A stretch of 33,937 nt of DNA from NCBI GenBank assembly GCA_003246895.1, contig QKCL01000042.1, forward strand, positions 1-33,937. The letters are read 5' to 3'. The position numbers and the translations under genes were made by a program. Source of the stretch: Spirochaetota bacterium (GTDB lineage Bacteria; Spirochaetota; UBA4802; UBA5550). The notes below the pieces were generated by a model. That model saw nothing but the letters and a program-made list of their open reading frames with translations, did not search any database and had not been told where the DNA came from. Positions 25,805 through 33,937 of this stretch are shown here, one piece after another (position 1 is the stretch's first letter; each line of letters begins with the position of its first letter).

Positions 25805-27562
25805 TTGTATATAGAAAAAGAAATAATTGAGTCTATCAGGGATAGGGCTAGAATTGAGGATGTTGTCATGCGATATGTCCCGTCTCTCAAGAAAAAAGGC
25901 AATAATTATGTCGGGCTTTGCCCGTTTCATAAGGAAAAAACTCCGTCTTTTACAGTTTCTCCGGATAAACAGATATTTCACTGCTTTGGCTGTAATGCAG
26001 GTGGAAATGTTTTTTCTTTTATATCAAAAATTGAAAACCTTGATTTTACTGAAAGTGTTGTATTTCTGGCAAGCCAGATGGGGATTGAAATATCCCGGGC
26101 GGATCAAAGCAGTTCCGGAATAATAAATGAGATTCGCAGAATTAATCTTTATGCACTTAAATACTATAACTCATTTTTAAAATCTCCTGCCGGAAAAGCA
26201 GGCATGGATTATATTATTTCCCGTGGTGTAAGTGTTGAGGCCATAGAAAAGTTCAAAATCGGCTATTCTCCTGACAGCTGGGATATGCTTTCCAGAAGCC
26301 TTAAAAAAAACAGGGCTGATATGTCAATTGTTGAGAAAATCGGGCTTTCTTCTCTCACGAAGGATAAAAGCAAATATATTGACAGGTTCAGGGGCAGGGT
26401 AATGTTCCCTATTTTTGATACATCTGAACATGTTGTGGCGTTTGGCGGACGTGTTCTGTCAGATTCCAGTCAGCCAAAATATCTCAATTCGCCGGATTCA
26501 GAGGTTTTTCACAAAAGGGATATTCTTTACGGTCTGAATTTTGCAAAGGAATCAATTCGAGAAAATGACAGGGTAATAGTGGTTGAAGGTTATCTGGATG
26601 TAATAGGATGCCATCAGAATGGACTCGAAAATGTTGTTGCTCCTCTTGGAACTGCTCTGACGGAGAATCATATAAAAAATCTTTCAAGGTTGTGCAATGA
26701 AATAATAATGCTCTTTGATTCTGATTCAGCCGGAATAAATGCCGCTCTTAAATCGATAAAAACAGGTAGTATTTTCAATACAGACATTAAGGTGGCAACG
26801 CTTCCAGAAGATGATCCATTTGATTATATTCAGAAAAAAGGCGTCATGGAGCTCATGATTATTATTGAAAATGCACAGAATCCTGTAGAGTTTCAGATCG
26901 ACACTGTTCTTAAAAACGGCAGAAACCAGGATGTTGTCAGGTTGATGAAGCAGATGGTTCCTGTTCTTGATTCTCTTGAACTTGATACTGAAAAAAACAG
27001 GTATTTAACATATATAGCACAGAAACTTAAAATTAATGAGATTGATTTAAGAAAAGACTATATGCATCTACGGTCAGGTGCATCAGGAACTGGAATATCA
27101 TCAATACCCGGCATGACTAAAATTGATTATTCAGCAAGGCTGTTTCGGGATTTGATATCCCTTATTCTTCATTACCCTGAAATTACCGGAGATGTTCTTA
27201 TAGATTTTTCTGTTGATGATATAAAAGACGAAACTTCCAGAAAAATTTACTTGAGGATCTCCGAGTTGTACCAATCTGAAAATAAACTCAAAATAGATAA
27301 AATATTTGACTTTTTCAGTGAAGGGATAGAAATGGAATTTTTGAAAGAAATAATTCAAAAAGAGATCAAGATTTCTGATCCAAAATCAGCATATACTGAA
27401 ATTTACGTGAATCTCAAGCTTCATTCAATAGACAGTAAACTTAACACTTATGCAGGACTGCTGAAGGAATCAAAAGATGACAAACTTGAATATCTTGCCG
27501 AGATTGAAATTCTAAGACGTGAAAAGGAAAAACTGAAAACGTATATCTATAATAAAGGGTAA
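25805..27562 (+). CDS. dnaG: DNA primase DnaG
   Basis: DnaG lays down RNA primers at the replication fork. The 585-residue protein has the N-terminal zinc domain (Cys39, His42, Cys60, Cys63), the catalytic TOPRIM core with Glu261 in VEGYLD and Asp305-Asp307 in FDSDSAG, and a C-terminal helical part that should bind DnaB. I use TTG at 25805, supported by AGAGAG five bases upstream and the conserved [15 protein letters not shown] start; no better ATG lies within 20 codons. It sits just upstream of rpoD, the classical macromolecular-synthesis order, but without rpsU. Confidence 0.97.
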
Positions 27563-27609
27563 CTGTCAGCCCGGTTGCCGAAAAATTGTTCTATAGGATT
27601 AAAAAAAAT

Positions 27610-29388
27610 ATGAGTAAAAATGATCTTGTTTTAGAAAATATCGCTGAAGTGAAAAAGTTGATCGAGCATGGTAAGGCCAACAATGAAATTACCTATGATG
27701 AAATCAACGAGATATTACCTGACAAACTGCTCAATTCAGATAAAATTGATGATATTTTTATACTCCTGAATCAGCTTGGGGTAGAGGTAGTTGAGGAATC
27801 TTCCAGTAAAAAGGGAGAGGAATTTGAAATAGAAGAGAAAAAAGTTCCTGTAAAAAAATCTACCAGAAAGGCATCCTCAGCAAATGAAGACACATCTCAT
27901 GTTGATGATCCTATCAGGCTTTATCTCAAGGAGATAGGAAAGGTGTCTCTGCTTTCAGGAGACCAGGAAGTAGACCTTGCAAAAAGAATTGAGGATGGGG
28001 AGATCCTCATTGAAAGAGCCGTTATTAATTCAGCTCTTCTTGTAAATGAATTGATAAAAAATCATTCCAAGGTTGTTACCGGAAAAATAAAACTTACGGA
28101 TATTTTAAGAATAAACAGGTTGTACTATTTTTCATCCGTTGACTTGAGTGAACTGGAAAAGAAATATACCGAGAAAATGAAAACCATCATAGATGAGGAT
28201 TCCAAATGTCTGAAACTTCAGAATAAAAAGAAAAAATATGAGGATAATTCGGCAGAGGTTTCAAAAATAGATGCCGAGATTGACGCTTCTAAAGAAAAAA
28301 TAATGCAGGCTGTTGTTGAACTTGAGATCAGTGAAGATGAAATCGGAAAACTTTCCAATAAAATTCAATCCATGGTTAAAAGAATTAAGGAGACCTATTC
28401 ATTCTTTAAAGAGATTGAAAACAACTATGGCAGGGATATAAAAGAGTTAAAGCATTTTTCAAGAAAGGTTGAGAAGGATGAAGATGTTGAGCAGATTGCT
28501 GATGAGCTTAACATAAAGAATATAGATGAACTTCTGGAAGTAGTTAAAGACATTCGTAATAATGAAAGAAAGATAAGAAGGATTGAACAGGAGGCTGGTG
28601 CGGAAGCTGATTTCATTCTGGAGTGGGGAAAACAGATTTCCCAGGGCCAGAGAAAAATTCAGCGTGCAAAGCAGGAGTTGATAAACGCAAACCTGAGACT
28701 TGTTGTTTCAATCGCAAAAAAATACGCTAACCGGGGCATGCATTTCTTTGACCTCATACAGGAGGGGAATATAGGCCTCATTAAGGCGGTTGACAAGTTC
28801 GAGTACAGAAAGGGATACAAATTTTCAACATATGCTACATGGTGGATAAGACAGGCCATAACACGGGCCATCTCAGACCAGGCCAGAACCATTCGTGTCC
28901 CTGTACACATGATAGAACAGATAAACAAGGTTATGAGGGAGACCCGTCTGTTCCAGCAGGAATTCGGAAGAGAACCCTCCGCTGAAGAACTTGCGGTCAG
29001 ACTTGGATGGCCTGAGGCAAAAGTCAAGGCTGTGAAGAATGTTGCGAGGGAGCCGATTTCACTGGAAACTCCTGTTGGTGAAGAGGAAGATTCACTGCTT
29101 GGTGATTTTATTGAGGACAAGGATGTTGATTCTCCTGCAAACACAGCAGCCCACAGACTTCTTAATGAACAGATAAACTCTGTATTAAGTACATTACCGG
29201 CAAGGGAGCAGAAAGTAATAAGAATGAGATTCGGTCTTGACGATGGGTATTCTCATACTCTCGAAGAGGTAGGTTATGTTTTTAAAGTTACCCGTGAAAG
29301 GATCAGGCAGATTGAGGCCAAGGCCCTGAGAAGGCTCAGGCATCCTACCAGAGCCAGAAAACTTAAAGATTATCTTGAATATATGTAG
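27610..29388 (+). CDS. rpoD: Primary sigma factor RpoD (sigma70)
   Basis: RpoD directs RNA polymerase to housekeeping promoters. The 592-residue protein has region 1.1, region 1.2 ([18 protein letters not shown]), a charged coiled-coil non-conserved region, region 2 with [10 protein letters not shown] and [20 protein letters not shown], region 3 and the region 4 helix-turn-helix ending [23 protein letters not shown] 27610 is preferred over an in-frame TTG at 27586 because AGGA (27595-27598) lies about 11 bases upstream. It follows dnaG by 47 bases and ends in a strong terminator. Confidence 0.98.
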
Positions 29389-29444: not shown

Positions 29445-31787
29445 ATGAGTGTAAAAATGTCAAATCATCCAAGAGTTAAAGTCGTAAGTGTTATTGGTGC
29501 AGGTTCATGGGGAACTTCTATTGCCAAGGTTATTGCAGAGACCAATCCTGGTGTTTCTGTAAAGATGTGGTCATATGAAAAAGCCACTGCATCATCGATT
29601 AACTCCAGGAATATGAATGACGAATATCTCCCCCTGATAAAACTTCCCGTGAATATTTCCGCCACGACTAACCTTAAGGATGCAGTTGAAGACAGTGACG
29701 GAATTATCCTTGCTCCTCCTTCCAAGGCTTTGCCGGATATAGTAGCAAGAATCGGGAAAAAGATGCAGAAAAAGGTTCCCATTGCATATCTGACCAAGGG
29801 ATTTTGCAGAATAAATAATGATATTCTTACAATATCCCAGACAATTGCGCAGATTCTTCCTGAATACAAAAACAGGGTAGTTTCAATATATGGTCCCAGT
29901 CATGCAGAGGAAGTGACTAAAAAATATCATACATGTCTGAATATAGCCTCGGATTCCAGTTTAGACGGCATGTTTTTTTATAATTTGCTGAATTGTGAAT
30001 ATCTGAAATGCAGAATTTCAGATGATATAATAGGTGTAGACGTGGGCGGCACATTGAAGAATCCAGCTGCCATTGCGGCAGGTATGATATCGATACTTCC
30101 TAACTGTGGAGATAATCTTTCAGGGGCACTTATTGCTGAGTCATTGAAGGAGATGATAGATCTCGGGGTCTCAATAGGTGCCAGAGCGGAGACTATAATT
30201 GATATTTCAGGAACAGGTGATCTTGTTGCCACGGCCCTGAGTGAACATAGCCGGAACAGAAGATTCGGCCAGGATATTGCCAGACAGATCATTGACAAGG
30301 GTACAAGCCTAAAATTTGCAGACAGACTTTATCTACGTTTTAAGCCGGAGTTTGTTCTTGAGAAAATGAGTAAAAACCTGCATTATCTGGCTGAAGGAGC
30401 ATATGCCATAGAGCCTCTTATTGAACTTGCCGAGAGGAACAATATTTCGATACCGGTTTACAGATCACTTTATGAGGTGCTGTTAAACAAAAAGGATCCG
30501 ACTCTTCTTATCGAGACCATTAAGGACCCTGAAAAGTTTGATGAAATATATAATGATATAAAGATTCATATAAAGGACAAAAAGAAAGGGCTTGAAGGAG
30601 TAAAGGGAAAGGCCTTTAAGAGAATTATCAAGCAGCAGATAATAAACAAGTATACTGGAAAACCTGATTCAGAGGAACAGTTGCAAATAAAAAAGAGTAT
30701 AATTCTCAATCTTAAAAATCATCTTGATGCCAACCAGGGGAAAGGGAATGCTGTGTTTTTTAAGGATGAAAAAGATTACCTGGAATCATTGAATGATGTT
30801 AATTATGAAAAGATAATCAGAAAACTGGTGTCAATTTATTTAAACGAGATTATGGATCATTACAATCCTCTGTTTTCAGAGTTAAACCTAAAATTCTATA
30901 ATTTTAAGTATTATCTGAACAAGATAAGGGGTATGAGAAATGAAATTACAACGGAAGGTGATTTTAAAGTCATAAATGACCTCAAAAACAGTGTTAATAT
31001 TGTTTATATTACAAAGTACAAAAATGCTATGGATAATGCCTACTATTTAAAGGAGATGAGAAAGAATAACCTTCCTGTTCCCAGATTTTTTATTTCAAAT
31101 GAAATACTGGGCAACAGGCTCCGGGTCTTTTTTAAGAGAAAAAGCGGCGGTTTCATGGTAAACAAAAATAAATTTGATAATGATATATACAGGGAATGTA
31201 TTGTTCATTACATATCGTCTCTTATCAGTCATGGCGTTCCTGTCCTTTATTCGCCGGATATTGAGACTCATTCCGGAGACATAAACGAAAGAATGAACGA
31301 GAGCTTTTTTTCACTTATCAATGAAGTTTTATATCGGGAAACAACTGAAATTGTTCTTTTTCCACTGCAGATTAAATACTCAGACAGGGTTAATGAGTCT
31401 CTCATTAGAAAACTGTTTATCGATCATGTGAACGTTAAATTCTCTTCTCCTCTTTTTTTATCCGATTTTACGAAAAAATCCACAAACAATGTTTCATTGT
31501 CAAAAATGATTGAAGATTCCTGGGAAAGTGACAGAATCATACTACCGTATCATATTGTGTCCAGGGTCGTGAAGGATTCAGGATACAGTATAAAACAGAG
31601 CAAGCTAAAAAAACATGTAGAACAACTCATTGATAGATATCATCTATCCTTTGAAAAGACACCGCGACAGATAGCCGGGGAAGGGGGTAAGTTCCTGGTG
31701 AAAAACAAACTCATGGCAAAAAACAATGATGATTATATTGTAATTGATAAGAGTAAAATTGATGATTATTCCTCATTGATTTACTGA
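29445..31787 (+). CDS. gpsA: Glycerol-3-phosphate dehydrogenase fused to a degenerate PlsB-like acyltransferase domain
   Basis: Residues about 10-365 form GpsA, which makes sn-glycerol-3-phosphate for phospholipids. Its NAD motif GAGSWGT (18-24), TKG (117-119), YGPSHAEE (149-156), Lys205 in GGTLKNPA and GTGD (256-259) with SRNRRFG are intact. The next 100 residues are a helical linker. Residues about 460-780 align by eye with PlsB: block I around 521-533 has Asp530 but Tyr525 in the place of the catalytic His; block II VFFKRK (561-566) is kept; block III PDIETH (604-609) replaces the EGxRSR-type motif; FPL (639-641) matches block IV. The second half should be inactive. Total length is 780 against about 335 for GpsA. 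Start ATG 29445 or 29457 is uncertain. Confidence 0.85.
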   Translation: MSVKMSNHPRVKVVSVIGAGSWGTSIAKVIAETNPGVSVKMWSYEKATASSINSRNMNDEYLPLIKLPVNISATTNLKDAVEDSDGIILAPPSKALPDIVARIGKKMQKKVPIAYLTKGFCRINNDILTISQTIAQILPEYKNRVVSIYGPSHAEEVTKKYHTCLNIASDSSLDGMFFYNLLNCEYLKCRISDDIIGVDVGGTLKNPAAIAAGMISILPNCGDNLSGALIAESLKEMIDLGVSIGARAETIIDISGTGDLVATALSEHSRNRRFGQDIARQIIDKGTSLKFADRLYLRFKPEFVLEKMSKNLHYLAEGAYAIEPLIELAERNNISIPVYRSLYEVLLNKKDPTLLIETIKDPEKFDEIYNDIKIHIKDKKKGLEGVKGKAFKRIIKQQIINKYTGKPDSEEQLQIKKSIILNLKNHLDANQGKGNAVFFKDEKDYLESLNDVNYEKIIRKLVSIYLNEIMDHYNPLFSELNLKFYNFKYYLNKIRGMRNEITTEGDFKVINDLKNSVNIVYITKYKNAMDNAYYLKEMRKNNLPVPRFFISNEILGNRLRVFFKRKSGGFMVNKNKFDNDIYRECIVHYISSLISHGVPVLYSPDIETHSGDINERMNESFFSLINEVLYRETTEIVLFPLQIKYSDRVNESLIRKLFIDHVNVKFSSPLFLSDFTKKSTNNVSLSKMIEDSWESDRIILPYHIVSRVVKDSGYSIKQSKLKKHVEQLIDRYHLSFEKTPRQIAGEGGKFLVKNKLMAKNNDDYIVIDKSKIDDYSSLIY

Positions 31788-32722
31788 TGCAGCGTGATGG
31801 AGTATAGTTTTTCAAAGATGTCATAGGAAGTTTTTATATCAGAATACGGAATTTTGGTGAAAGTATAAACAAGAATTATATCATTGAAAATGAAGTTCAA
31901 TGATGAATCAATTTTAAGATTTTCCTTCTCCTCCATATTATATTCTTCATTGCCTTTTTCCATACTGTTTTCTGAAACTACAATCACTATAAACAGCGTT
32001 AATGATAATTTAAAAATACCAGATCTGTTTTTGAAAAAGCTTTTCAGCTTGTTTTCAATAGATTCTGAAAATTCTATGGCTGTATTCAGGCCGGTTTCAT
32101 GAAGAAACGTATTGTGATCAAATTTAAAGATATAGATAGACCTTATGACTGCTTCATTTTTATGGAGAAATGAGTTGATTTGAACAGCTGAATCTTCAAA
32201 AAAATCATTAAAGTAAGGCTTTTCAACGGTTTCAGTAAGCCTGATGTATTCCATTAGAATGTCGGAGAGCATATGAAATTTTGAAGCTTTGAAAAATTTT
32301 GATTCACTAAAGCATACGAGAGAGTATTCCCTGTCATTGATATTCATTGTCTCATGATATGATCTGTAGATAATTGAATTGTATTTTATTGAGTCATAGG
32401 TTTTATAGAAATCCTTTCCATGATTGAGACGGAAGATTATATTGTTCAGGAGGTTTTGATCTCCAACAGCCTCTACTATTACCGAATGACCGTTTTCCTT
32501 CATGATAAGGATTGTAATATCACTGAAGTTGCTTTTATTGAATTCCAGAAATACCTTTTCAACATATCCGGTTATTTCATTGTTCCCCGGTATTTCATTG
32601 CGGATCTGTGTTTTGTATTCATTTAATGAGTCTAGAGCTTCATCCGGTCCAATTGTACCATCTGAAATATTTTTTTTCAGATCTGATAATTGATTAATTA
32701 TTTCTTTTTTTCCCATTCTCAT
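31781..32722 (-). CDS. Unrecognised 313-aa protein, possibly a degenerate GGDEF-like fold
   Basis: I do not recognise this protein. It has no signal peptide or clear membrane segment, though one stretch (FKLSLTLFIVIVV) is strongly hydrophobic. Residues 1-45 are a helical charged region. The middle looks alpha/beta. Residues about 190-252 run IYIFKFDH, a helix, then GIFKLSLTLFIVIV, an order resembling a GGDEF domain whose signature is lost; this is inference. ATG 32722 or 32716 starts it, overlapping the end of folC by up to 29 bases. Its end overlaps the convergent gpsA fusion by seven bases. Confidence 0.7.
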   Translation of the reverse strand: MRMGKKEIINQLSDLKKNISDGTIGPDEALDSLNEYKTQIRNEIPGNNEITGYVEKVFLEFNKSNFSDITILIMKENGHSVIVEAVGDQNLLNNIIFRLNHGKDFYKTYDSIKYNSIIYRSYHETMNINDREYSLVCFSESKFFKASKFHMLSDILMEYIRLTETVEKPYFNDFFEDSAVQINSFLHKNEAVIRSIYIFKFDHNTFLHETGLNTAIEFSESIENKLKSFFKNRSGIFKLSLTLFIVIVVSENSMEKGNEEYNMEEKENLKIDSSLNFIFNDIILVYTFTKIPYSDIKTSYDIFEKLYSITLHQ

Positions 32723-33937
32723 CTGTTTCCAGTTGTTTAGTAAGTTCTACTGCTGTCTCATATAAACGGAATGTCCCGGTAAATACAATGACTTCGTTCT
32801 CTTTGTTTGCACTTTTTAATATATTTAGCAAATCATTTTTACTTTTACAGGTTTTAAAAGTATCAGGTTCTGGATTGAAAACTCCATACATGGATCCTGT
32901 GTAATAGATGATACTGTTCCTGTGCACCGACAGTAAATCCCTGATTTCCGGAATTACCTTGTCATCGAGCAGAGAAATGATAAAAGTAATTTTAAAATTG
33001 CTGAAGATTTCTTCAACTGTGGAAAAAAGGTTAGACAGGCCGCTCAAATTATGAGCTGCATCATAATACACGAGAGGCCTTGAGCAGATTTTTTGGAACC
33101 TGCCTTGCAGTGTGTAATTATTTACGGTATTCTCTATTATTCTGTTTTCAACGGAATGATTCTCCTTATTTAAAAGATCTGTGTAAATAGACATTGCCAA
33201 AGATATATTCTTCAGCTGATGTTTCATTATCATTGGAGTATGGAGATCCAGAGAAACAGGCCCATAACGGTATTTGAAATCGATGCCTTCCATGGAGCAT
33301 GATGTAATTGAAAAGGTATAATCCTTTTCTTCTGAAATAATCATGGAATTATTTTCTTTTGCAAATTTTTTGATTATATTCAGTATCATAACTGATGTGT
33401 TATTTGTATAAACAGGAACCTGTGGTTTAATTATACCGCATTTTTCAGTGGTAATTGATTCTATTTGGTTTCCAAGAATTTTTGTATGATCAGGTGATAT
33501 TTCAGTTATTGCTGATATCTCCGGCGTAACAGCATTTGTTGAATCCAGCCTTCCTCCGAGCCCGGTCTCAATTATTGCAAAGTCAACGTGTTCATCACTG
33601 AAGTATTTAAATGCCATTGCAGTAAGAAAATCAAAGAATGTGGCATTTACATTATGTTTTGACAATATATCGTGAAGTTCGGCTGCATAGCTGTCAAGTT
33701 TATGATCAGGTATTGGCATGTCGCATATCTGTATTCTTTCGTTATATAATAAAAGGTGGGGAGAGGTGAAGAGACCTGTCTTATAGTTAGTTTCACATAA
33801 AAGTTTGTTGAGCAGGAACGCGGTAGTCCCTTTACCGTTTGTACCTGCAATATGGACCGATTTAAATGATTTTTGAGGGTTACACAGCAGGTTGAGAATA
33901 GTGGTAATCTGCGATAGATCGTATTTCCTGAATTCTC
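32694..33937 (-). CDS. folC: Folylpolyglutamate / dihydrofolate synthase FolC, 5' end outside the window
   Basis: FolC adds glutamate to folates and, in most bacteria, to dihydropteroate. The reading frame stays open to the window edge, with at least 413 codons visible; the true start lies beyond 33937. The P-loop is GTNGKGTT, followed by LFTSPHL. Then come the Mur-ligase-type ETGLGGRLDSTNA, SPDHTKILG and the EKCGIIKP segment. In the C-terminal domain YDAAHNLSGL matches the family's DGAHNP. The protein therefore has the expected layout. It overlaps the downstream unrecognised gene. Confidence 0.93.
   Translation of the reverse strand, partial: EFRKYDLSQITTILNLLCNPQKSFKSVHIAGTNGKGTTAFLLNKLLCETNYKTGLFTSPHLLLYNERIQICDMPIPDHKLDSYAAELHDILSKHNVNATFFDFLTAMAFKYFSDEHVDFAIIETGLGGRLDSTNAVTPEISAITEISPDHTKILGNQIESITTEKCGIIKPQVPVYTNNTSVMILNIIKKFAKENNSMIISEEKDYTFSITSCSMEGIDFKYRYGPVSLDLHTPMIMKHQLKNISLAMSIYTDLLNKENHSVENRIIENTVNNYTLQGRFQKICSRPLVYYDAAHNLSGLSNLFSTVEEIFSNFKITFIISLLDDKVIPEIRDLLSVHRNSIIYYTGSMYGVFNPEPDTFKTCKSKNDLLNILKSANKENEVIVFTGTFRLYETAVELTKQLETDENGKKRNN

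Follow-up and report, generated by a model that had tools for sequence, protein, structure and literature searches.

Phospholipid synthesis begins with two successive reactions, the formation of glycerol-3-phosphate (G3P) by GpsA and its acylation by PlsB. Studies of how bacteria match the supply of G3P to its acylation usually deal with two separate proteins. A natural glycerol-3-phosphate dehydrogenase covalently joined to another enzyme domain is found in DsGPDH of Dunaliella salina (PDB 6iuy), whose partner is an N-terminal phosphatase-type domain leading to glycerol, not an acyltransferase. No description of a natural GpsA-PlsB fusion was found in the open-access literature searched.

Here we analyze a fusion gene, GpsA-pseudoPlsB, carried by a Spirochaetota bacterium on contig QKCL01000042.1, of which a stretch of 33,937 nucleotides was examined (hereafter, the window). 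Like GpsA (PF01210/PF07479; Coxiella 3k96), the protein holds the full domain pair with intact catalytic and NAD residues, and its full-length model matches 3k96 with a target TM of 0.92, as its fold also matches DsGPDH; unlike GpsA, it carries a 39-residue segment before YLAEG and a 420-residue C-terminal extension. With PlsB/GPAT1 (TIGR03703; PDB 9vuq and 8e4y) it shares the fold, the order of blocks I-IV, the Asp of HxxxxD and the block IV proline, but it lacks the catalytic His and the EGxRSR motif, covers only part of the PlsB length and lies behind GpsA. We refer to the spirochaete order of the source organism, which includes families f3 and f5, as the home order. Another Spirochaetota family, f34, encodes fusions (L130-L141 and L149) that match GpsA-pseudoPlsB in domain order and in the length of the GpsA segment and differ from it in having intact HxxxxD and EGTRSR motifs, a faster-diverging GpsA half and, usually, an additional canonical GpsA in the genome. 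What is new here, judging by sequence motifs, is this f34 fusion of GpsA to an acyltransferase with an intact active site. A fusion that is intact in one lineage and has a dead acyltransferase in the other offers a direct handle on the coupling of GpsA and PlsB, and on the route by which one half of a fused enzyme becomes a regulator.

An intact GpsA half in a single open frame

The original prediction, of one uninterrupted frame with an intact GpsA half at its N-terminus, was borne out by Pfam, NCBIfam and fold matches (Table 1). Both Pfam domains scored well over their gathering cut-offs, the N-domain with an E-value of 3e-39 (134.8 bits against 23.1) and the C-domain with 4e-34 (118.5 bits against 25). 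The GxGxxG motif, K118, K205-N206, D259, T263 and R270-N271 (of SRNR) are all intact and are invariant in the 29 home-order members aligned; the GpsA half is predicted to be an active dehydrogenase. The fused gene is the sole GpsA found in the source genome, as well as in every fused home-order genome tested with the GpsA family.

Table 1. Features of the GpsA-pseudoPlsB locus, in window coordinates
Feature	Position	Strand	Remarks
dnaG and rpoD, upstream neighbours	25805..29388	+	adjacency to the fusion conserved
GpsA-pseudoPlsB fusion gene	29445..31787	+	780 codons and stop; single uninterrupted frame
Alternative start, Met5	29457	+	
GpsA half, residues 14-360	29484..30524	+	Pfam domain pair; invariant catalytic and NAD residues
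Longer GpsA segment, SRNRRFG to YLAEG, 39 residues, fusion-specific	30270..30383	+	common to the f34 intact fusions
Helical linker, residues 361-500	30525..30944	+	
Helix 475-494, immediately before the acyltransferase fold; possible membrane-contact helix	30867..30926	+	
Degenerate PlsB/GPAT-type acyltransferase fold, residues 501-666	30945..31442	+	profile, Pfam and predicted structure
Block I, residues 525-530, YKNAMD	31017..31034	+	Tyr525 for catalytic His; Asp530 kept
Block III position, residues 604-609, PDIETH	31254..31271	+	PEGTRSR-type motif in intact relatives
C-terminal helical or winged-helix-like tail, residues 685-780	31497..31784	+	shortened in some relatives

The segment from SRNRRFG to YLAEG spans 39 residues in the fusions compared to 18 in most measurable stand-alone GpsAs, lengths that were obtained by a motif search in which many stand-alone rows gave no match and two f3 values of 2 look spurious, the search motif apparently having matched too early in the sequence. 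Among the matches listed in a plasmid search with the protein, only ordinary GpsA was found.

A PlsB-type fold that lacks the catalytic residues

As a single query, the C-terminal half matched no Pfam or NCBIfam family and gave no convincing PDB match; detecting its relationship required a family profile, which we built from 27 homologous C-halves. This profile matched one PDB sequence, that of PlsB (9vuq_E, i-E 7e-6), and the alignment ran through blocks I-IV, just as had been proposed from the sequence. The Pfam Acyltransferase family was matched by 15 of the 27 C-halves (best 3e-9), and the predicted structure of the C-half (pLDDT 87) had human GPAT1, 8e4y, as its best match (E 8e-11, query TM 0.70). 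The profile and model matches together identify an LPLAT fold of the PlsB/GPAT type, and they rule out a chance resemblance to PlsB. Neither GPAT_C (PF19277) nor the PlsY domain (PF02660) was matched by the GpsA-pseudoPlsB protein; a weak GPAT_C match (E 0.0016) was seen in the tail region of one intact f34 relative.

The substitutions read from the sequence, namely Tyr525 in place of the HxxxxD His with Asp530 kept, and PDIETH in place of the G3P-binding EGxRSR, were confirmed letter for letter, and by the roles of their counterparts in E. coli PlsB the lost residues are those of G3P binding and catalysis. A shifted alignment does not account for this, since the intact f34 homologues place their His and EGTRSR exactly in the columns of Tyr525 and PDIETH. 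Among the 29 home-order members position 525 is occupied by F, Y, A, G, H, N, R, C or V, with His found in two close relatives (HKNIND and HKNVND), which makes the loss mosaic and not a fixed His-to-Tyr change. None of the 29 keeps the whole EGxRSR set or a complete active site (Glu is kept in 10 and the first Arg in 2, with the block III alignment being uncertain in the most diverged rows), and Asp530 is retained in 27. Other strongly kept positions are P546, R547, G568, Y582, Y589, G597 and P640.

That the half is still catalytic, as an altered acyltransferase or a thioesterase using other residues or another acceptor, is a reading to which we give little credence. It could call on the retained Asp530 and block IV proline and on the HxxxxD-like motifs of the two close relatives, but residue 525 is highly variable, block III holds no conserved replacement motif, and a new active site should display invariant polar residues of its own.

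The fusion is conserved across the home order

The fusion was found in 38 of 46 home-order genomes by a hand count (five of them, all f5, matching in two pieces), most genomes carrying a full-length relative of GpsA-pseudoPlsB. Of the other eight, four (f3) encode GpsA in unfused form, three yielded no GpsA with the fusion queries, and in one the locus is truncated where its contig stops. In the survey of homologues suggested with the original prediction, the fusion was conserved and Tyr525 was not, the residue being variable; the broader notion of a PlsB-type domain devoid of its catalytic residues, conserved together with the fusion across an order, is supported. A species-level genome collection contained 31 loci that could be found by name, all in metagenome-assembled genomes, with 30 titled Spirochaetes or Spirochaetota and one titled uncultured bacterium. 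The dnaG and rpoD genes lie directly upstream in 27 of these 31 (two with rpoD only, at a contig end; one partial locus), and folC is often found downstream. The GpsA-pseudoPlsB fusion is thus ancient and conserved.

The original prediction had further raised the question of which acyltransferases accompany the fusion. The source genome encodes a separate PlsB with catalytic motifs (HKSHLDY and EGGRS), and PlsX and PlsY were not detected in it, an absence that is not absolute given an assembly of 95 contigs at 96% completeness. Among the relatives, PlsB (GPAT_C) was found in 36 of 39 and PlsY in 10 of 39. Several home-order genomes (G011, G022, G031 and G035) each carry two full-length PlsB (GPAT_C) genes.

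Family f3 (L166-L169), a home-order family that is devoid of the fusion, has PlsB and an unfused GpsA, indicating that PlsB can function without the dead half. In the GpsA tree, this unfused f3 protein clusters with f34 stand-alone GpsA, which suggests that fused and unfused forms coexisted in an ancestor.

Intact fusions in family f34 and a probable common origin

A phylum-wide scan identified 16 f34 genomes encoding a GpsA-acyltransferase fusion, of about 800-840 amino acids. In all 13 of the f34 fusions that were aligned, His, Asp and EGTRSR are intact, and the NCBIfam plsB model matched their acyltransferase half with E-values of 1e-24 to 1e-26. Conservation of the two halves is reciprocal: within the home order, identity is 0.59 for GpsA, 0.31 for the acyltransferase fold and 0.24 for the linker, whereas within f34 it is 0.40 for GpsA and 0.61 for the acyltransferase. 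The GpsA half of the f34 fusions has lost T263 in five of 13 and K118 in one of 13; we considered whether it is dead and dropped the idea, as most of its catalytic residues are kept and it is under purifying selection. No stand-alone GPAT_C PlsB scored over the cut-off in the f34 genomes, and PlsY was not detected in nine of the 16, so that these nine, as judged by the PlsB and PlsY search, may have no G3P acyltransferase other than the intact fusion.

In phylogenetic analysis, the GpsA halves of the home order and f34 constitute one side of a branch with an SH-aLRT of 99, and the grouping held at 97-98 under stricter column filtering, which should remove the insert. The acyltransferase halves of the two group at 92, in a tree with long branches and modest support. 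With both trees in agreement and with the 39-residue GpsA segment and domain order common to the fusions of both families, a single fusion event is the simplest reading. We regard it as quite improbable that the two fusions arose independently and only appear related. The f34 GpsA halves do sit on a long branch, their grouping with the f34 stand-alone GpsA was rejected only at a p-AU of 0.046, and the f34 fusions were not adjacent to rpoD in the stretches examined; against this, the grouping is recovered from each of the two independent halves, and the same layout and long GpsA segment recur in both families.

Selection on the degenerate half and its possible role

Six close pairs were compared for dN/dS. 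For the degenerate fold it was 0.07-0.13 in five of them, where GpsA gave 0.04-0.10, and in the sixth (L030/L031, f5) it was 0.46, pointing to relaxed selection; these are counting estimates, and since dS was mostly 0.75-2.7 and thus partly saturated, the ratios are only rough. The degenerate half is under purifying selection, which argues for a retained function and against a decaying remnant that is being lost. Such decay would fit the low identity of fold and linker within the order, the shortened tails of several members, a TGA in one member and the relaxed f5 pair. It is mostly rejected by ratios of about 0.1 in the five other pairs, and the frame is open in nearly all home-order genomes, some positions are invariant and the fold is predicted with confidence, leaving decay with a slim chance.

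Considering that other spirochaetes carry the same fusion with an apparently live second half, the dead one has probably been retained to anchor or regulate. We lean, without strong conviction, towards an active GpsA whose pseudo-acyltransferase was kept from a once bifunctional fusion in order to position or regulate it. The ancestor would have been a GpsA-PlsB fusion, probably with both activities (DHAP to G3P to lysophosphatidate). In the home order, acylation of G3P would be carried out by the separate PlsB, and the fused acyltransferase half has lost its G3P-binding and catalytic residues while keeping the fold and a conserved set of noncatalytic residues. The fusion protein would serve as the cell's GpsA, supplying G3P, and the dead half would most likely hold GpsA at the membrane beside PlsB, tune it to lipid demand, or both.

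From these sequence features, we infer an anchoring, docking or regulatory role for the dead half, in which it would contact the membrane, PlsB or an acyl donor; the original prediction likewise named acyl-chain sensing, docking of a true acyltransferase and membrane anchoring as candidate roles. In most members, helix 475-494 combines hydrophobic, aromatic and basic residues and is among their most hydrophobic stretches, which fits anchoring, though in GpsA-pseudoPlsB itself it is only moderate, at the 75th percentile. Besides this moderate helix, the absence of the C-terminal tail from some relatives, the dN/dS of the L030/L031 pair, the f3 genomes with PlsB and an unfused GpsA, and the long branches and modest support of the acyltransferase tree speak against the explanation that we favor.

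A structural appendage folded onto GpsA, needed for solubility or oligomerization and having no tie to lipid synthesis, is unlikely, yet it is the strongest of the competing accounts of the dead half. The domain is present wherever this type of GpsA was found complete, the conserved P546, R547, G568, Y582, Y589 and G597 fall outside the catalytic motifs, and the pTM of the full-length model (0.68) would allow the two halves to be packed together. However, GpsAs that stand alone do without such a domain, and what is attached is a pathway-related enzyme and not an arbitrary fold.

A reversed fusion in family f34

Most f34 genomes encode a third gene, of about 690 amino acids (L150-L156), in which the acyltransferase is N-terminal and is followed by a GpsA-like half. 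HxxxxD (as NHxSHxD) is intact in the seven checked and EGTRSR is present in the four sequences inspected for it; in the GpsA-like half of these four, the glycine motif of the first strand is replaced (e.g., VGHSPAAT) and SRNR has become SKDR or ARDR. The acyltransferase of the reversed fusion groups with PlsC-like enzymes, apart from those of the GpsA-PlsB fusions, indicating a separate event.

A bolder scenario, which we consider possible but doubtful, is that the halves were fused once in spirochaete evolution and that the fusion then specialized in opposite directions, the home order towards GpsA with a pseudoenzyme regulator and f34 towards an acyltransferase-led fusion together with the reversed one. 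In this scenario the regulator would act on G3P supply through binding of an acyl donor or the membrane, and the reversed fusion would be a second event, its GpsA half devoid of the NAD motif. If it is true, physical coupling of the first two steps of phospholipid synthesis would be a repeated theme in the phylum, with one half acting as a sensor for the other.

Open reading frames flanking the fusion

Downstream of the fusion, on the minus strand, positions 31784-32722 encode a 313-amino acid protein with no Pfam or NCBIfam match, whose counterparts (26-33% identity) adjoin the fusion in three close relatives only. It is followed by a FolC-like open reading frame (32697-33719, minus strand), in which the first 67 positions of the family profile are unmatched and the match starts only at position 68; with the contig stopping at 33937, this folC-like gene probably runs on past it.
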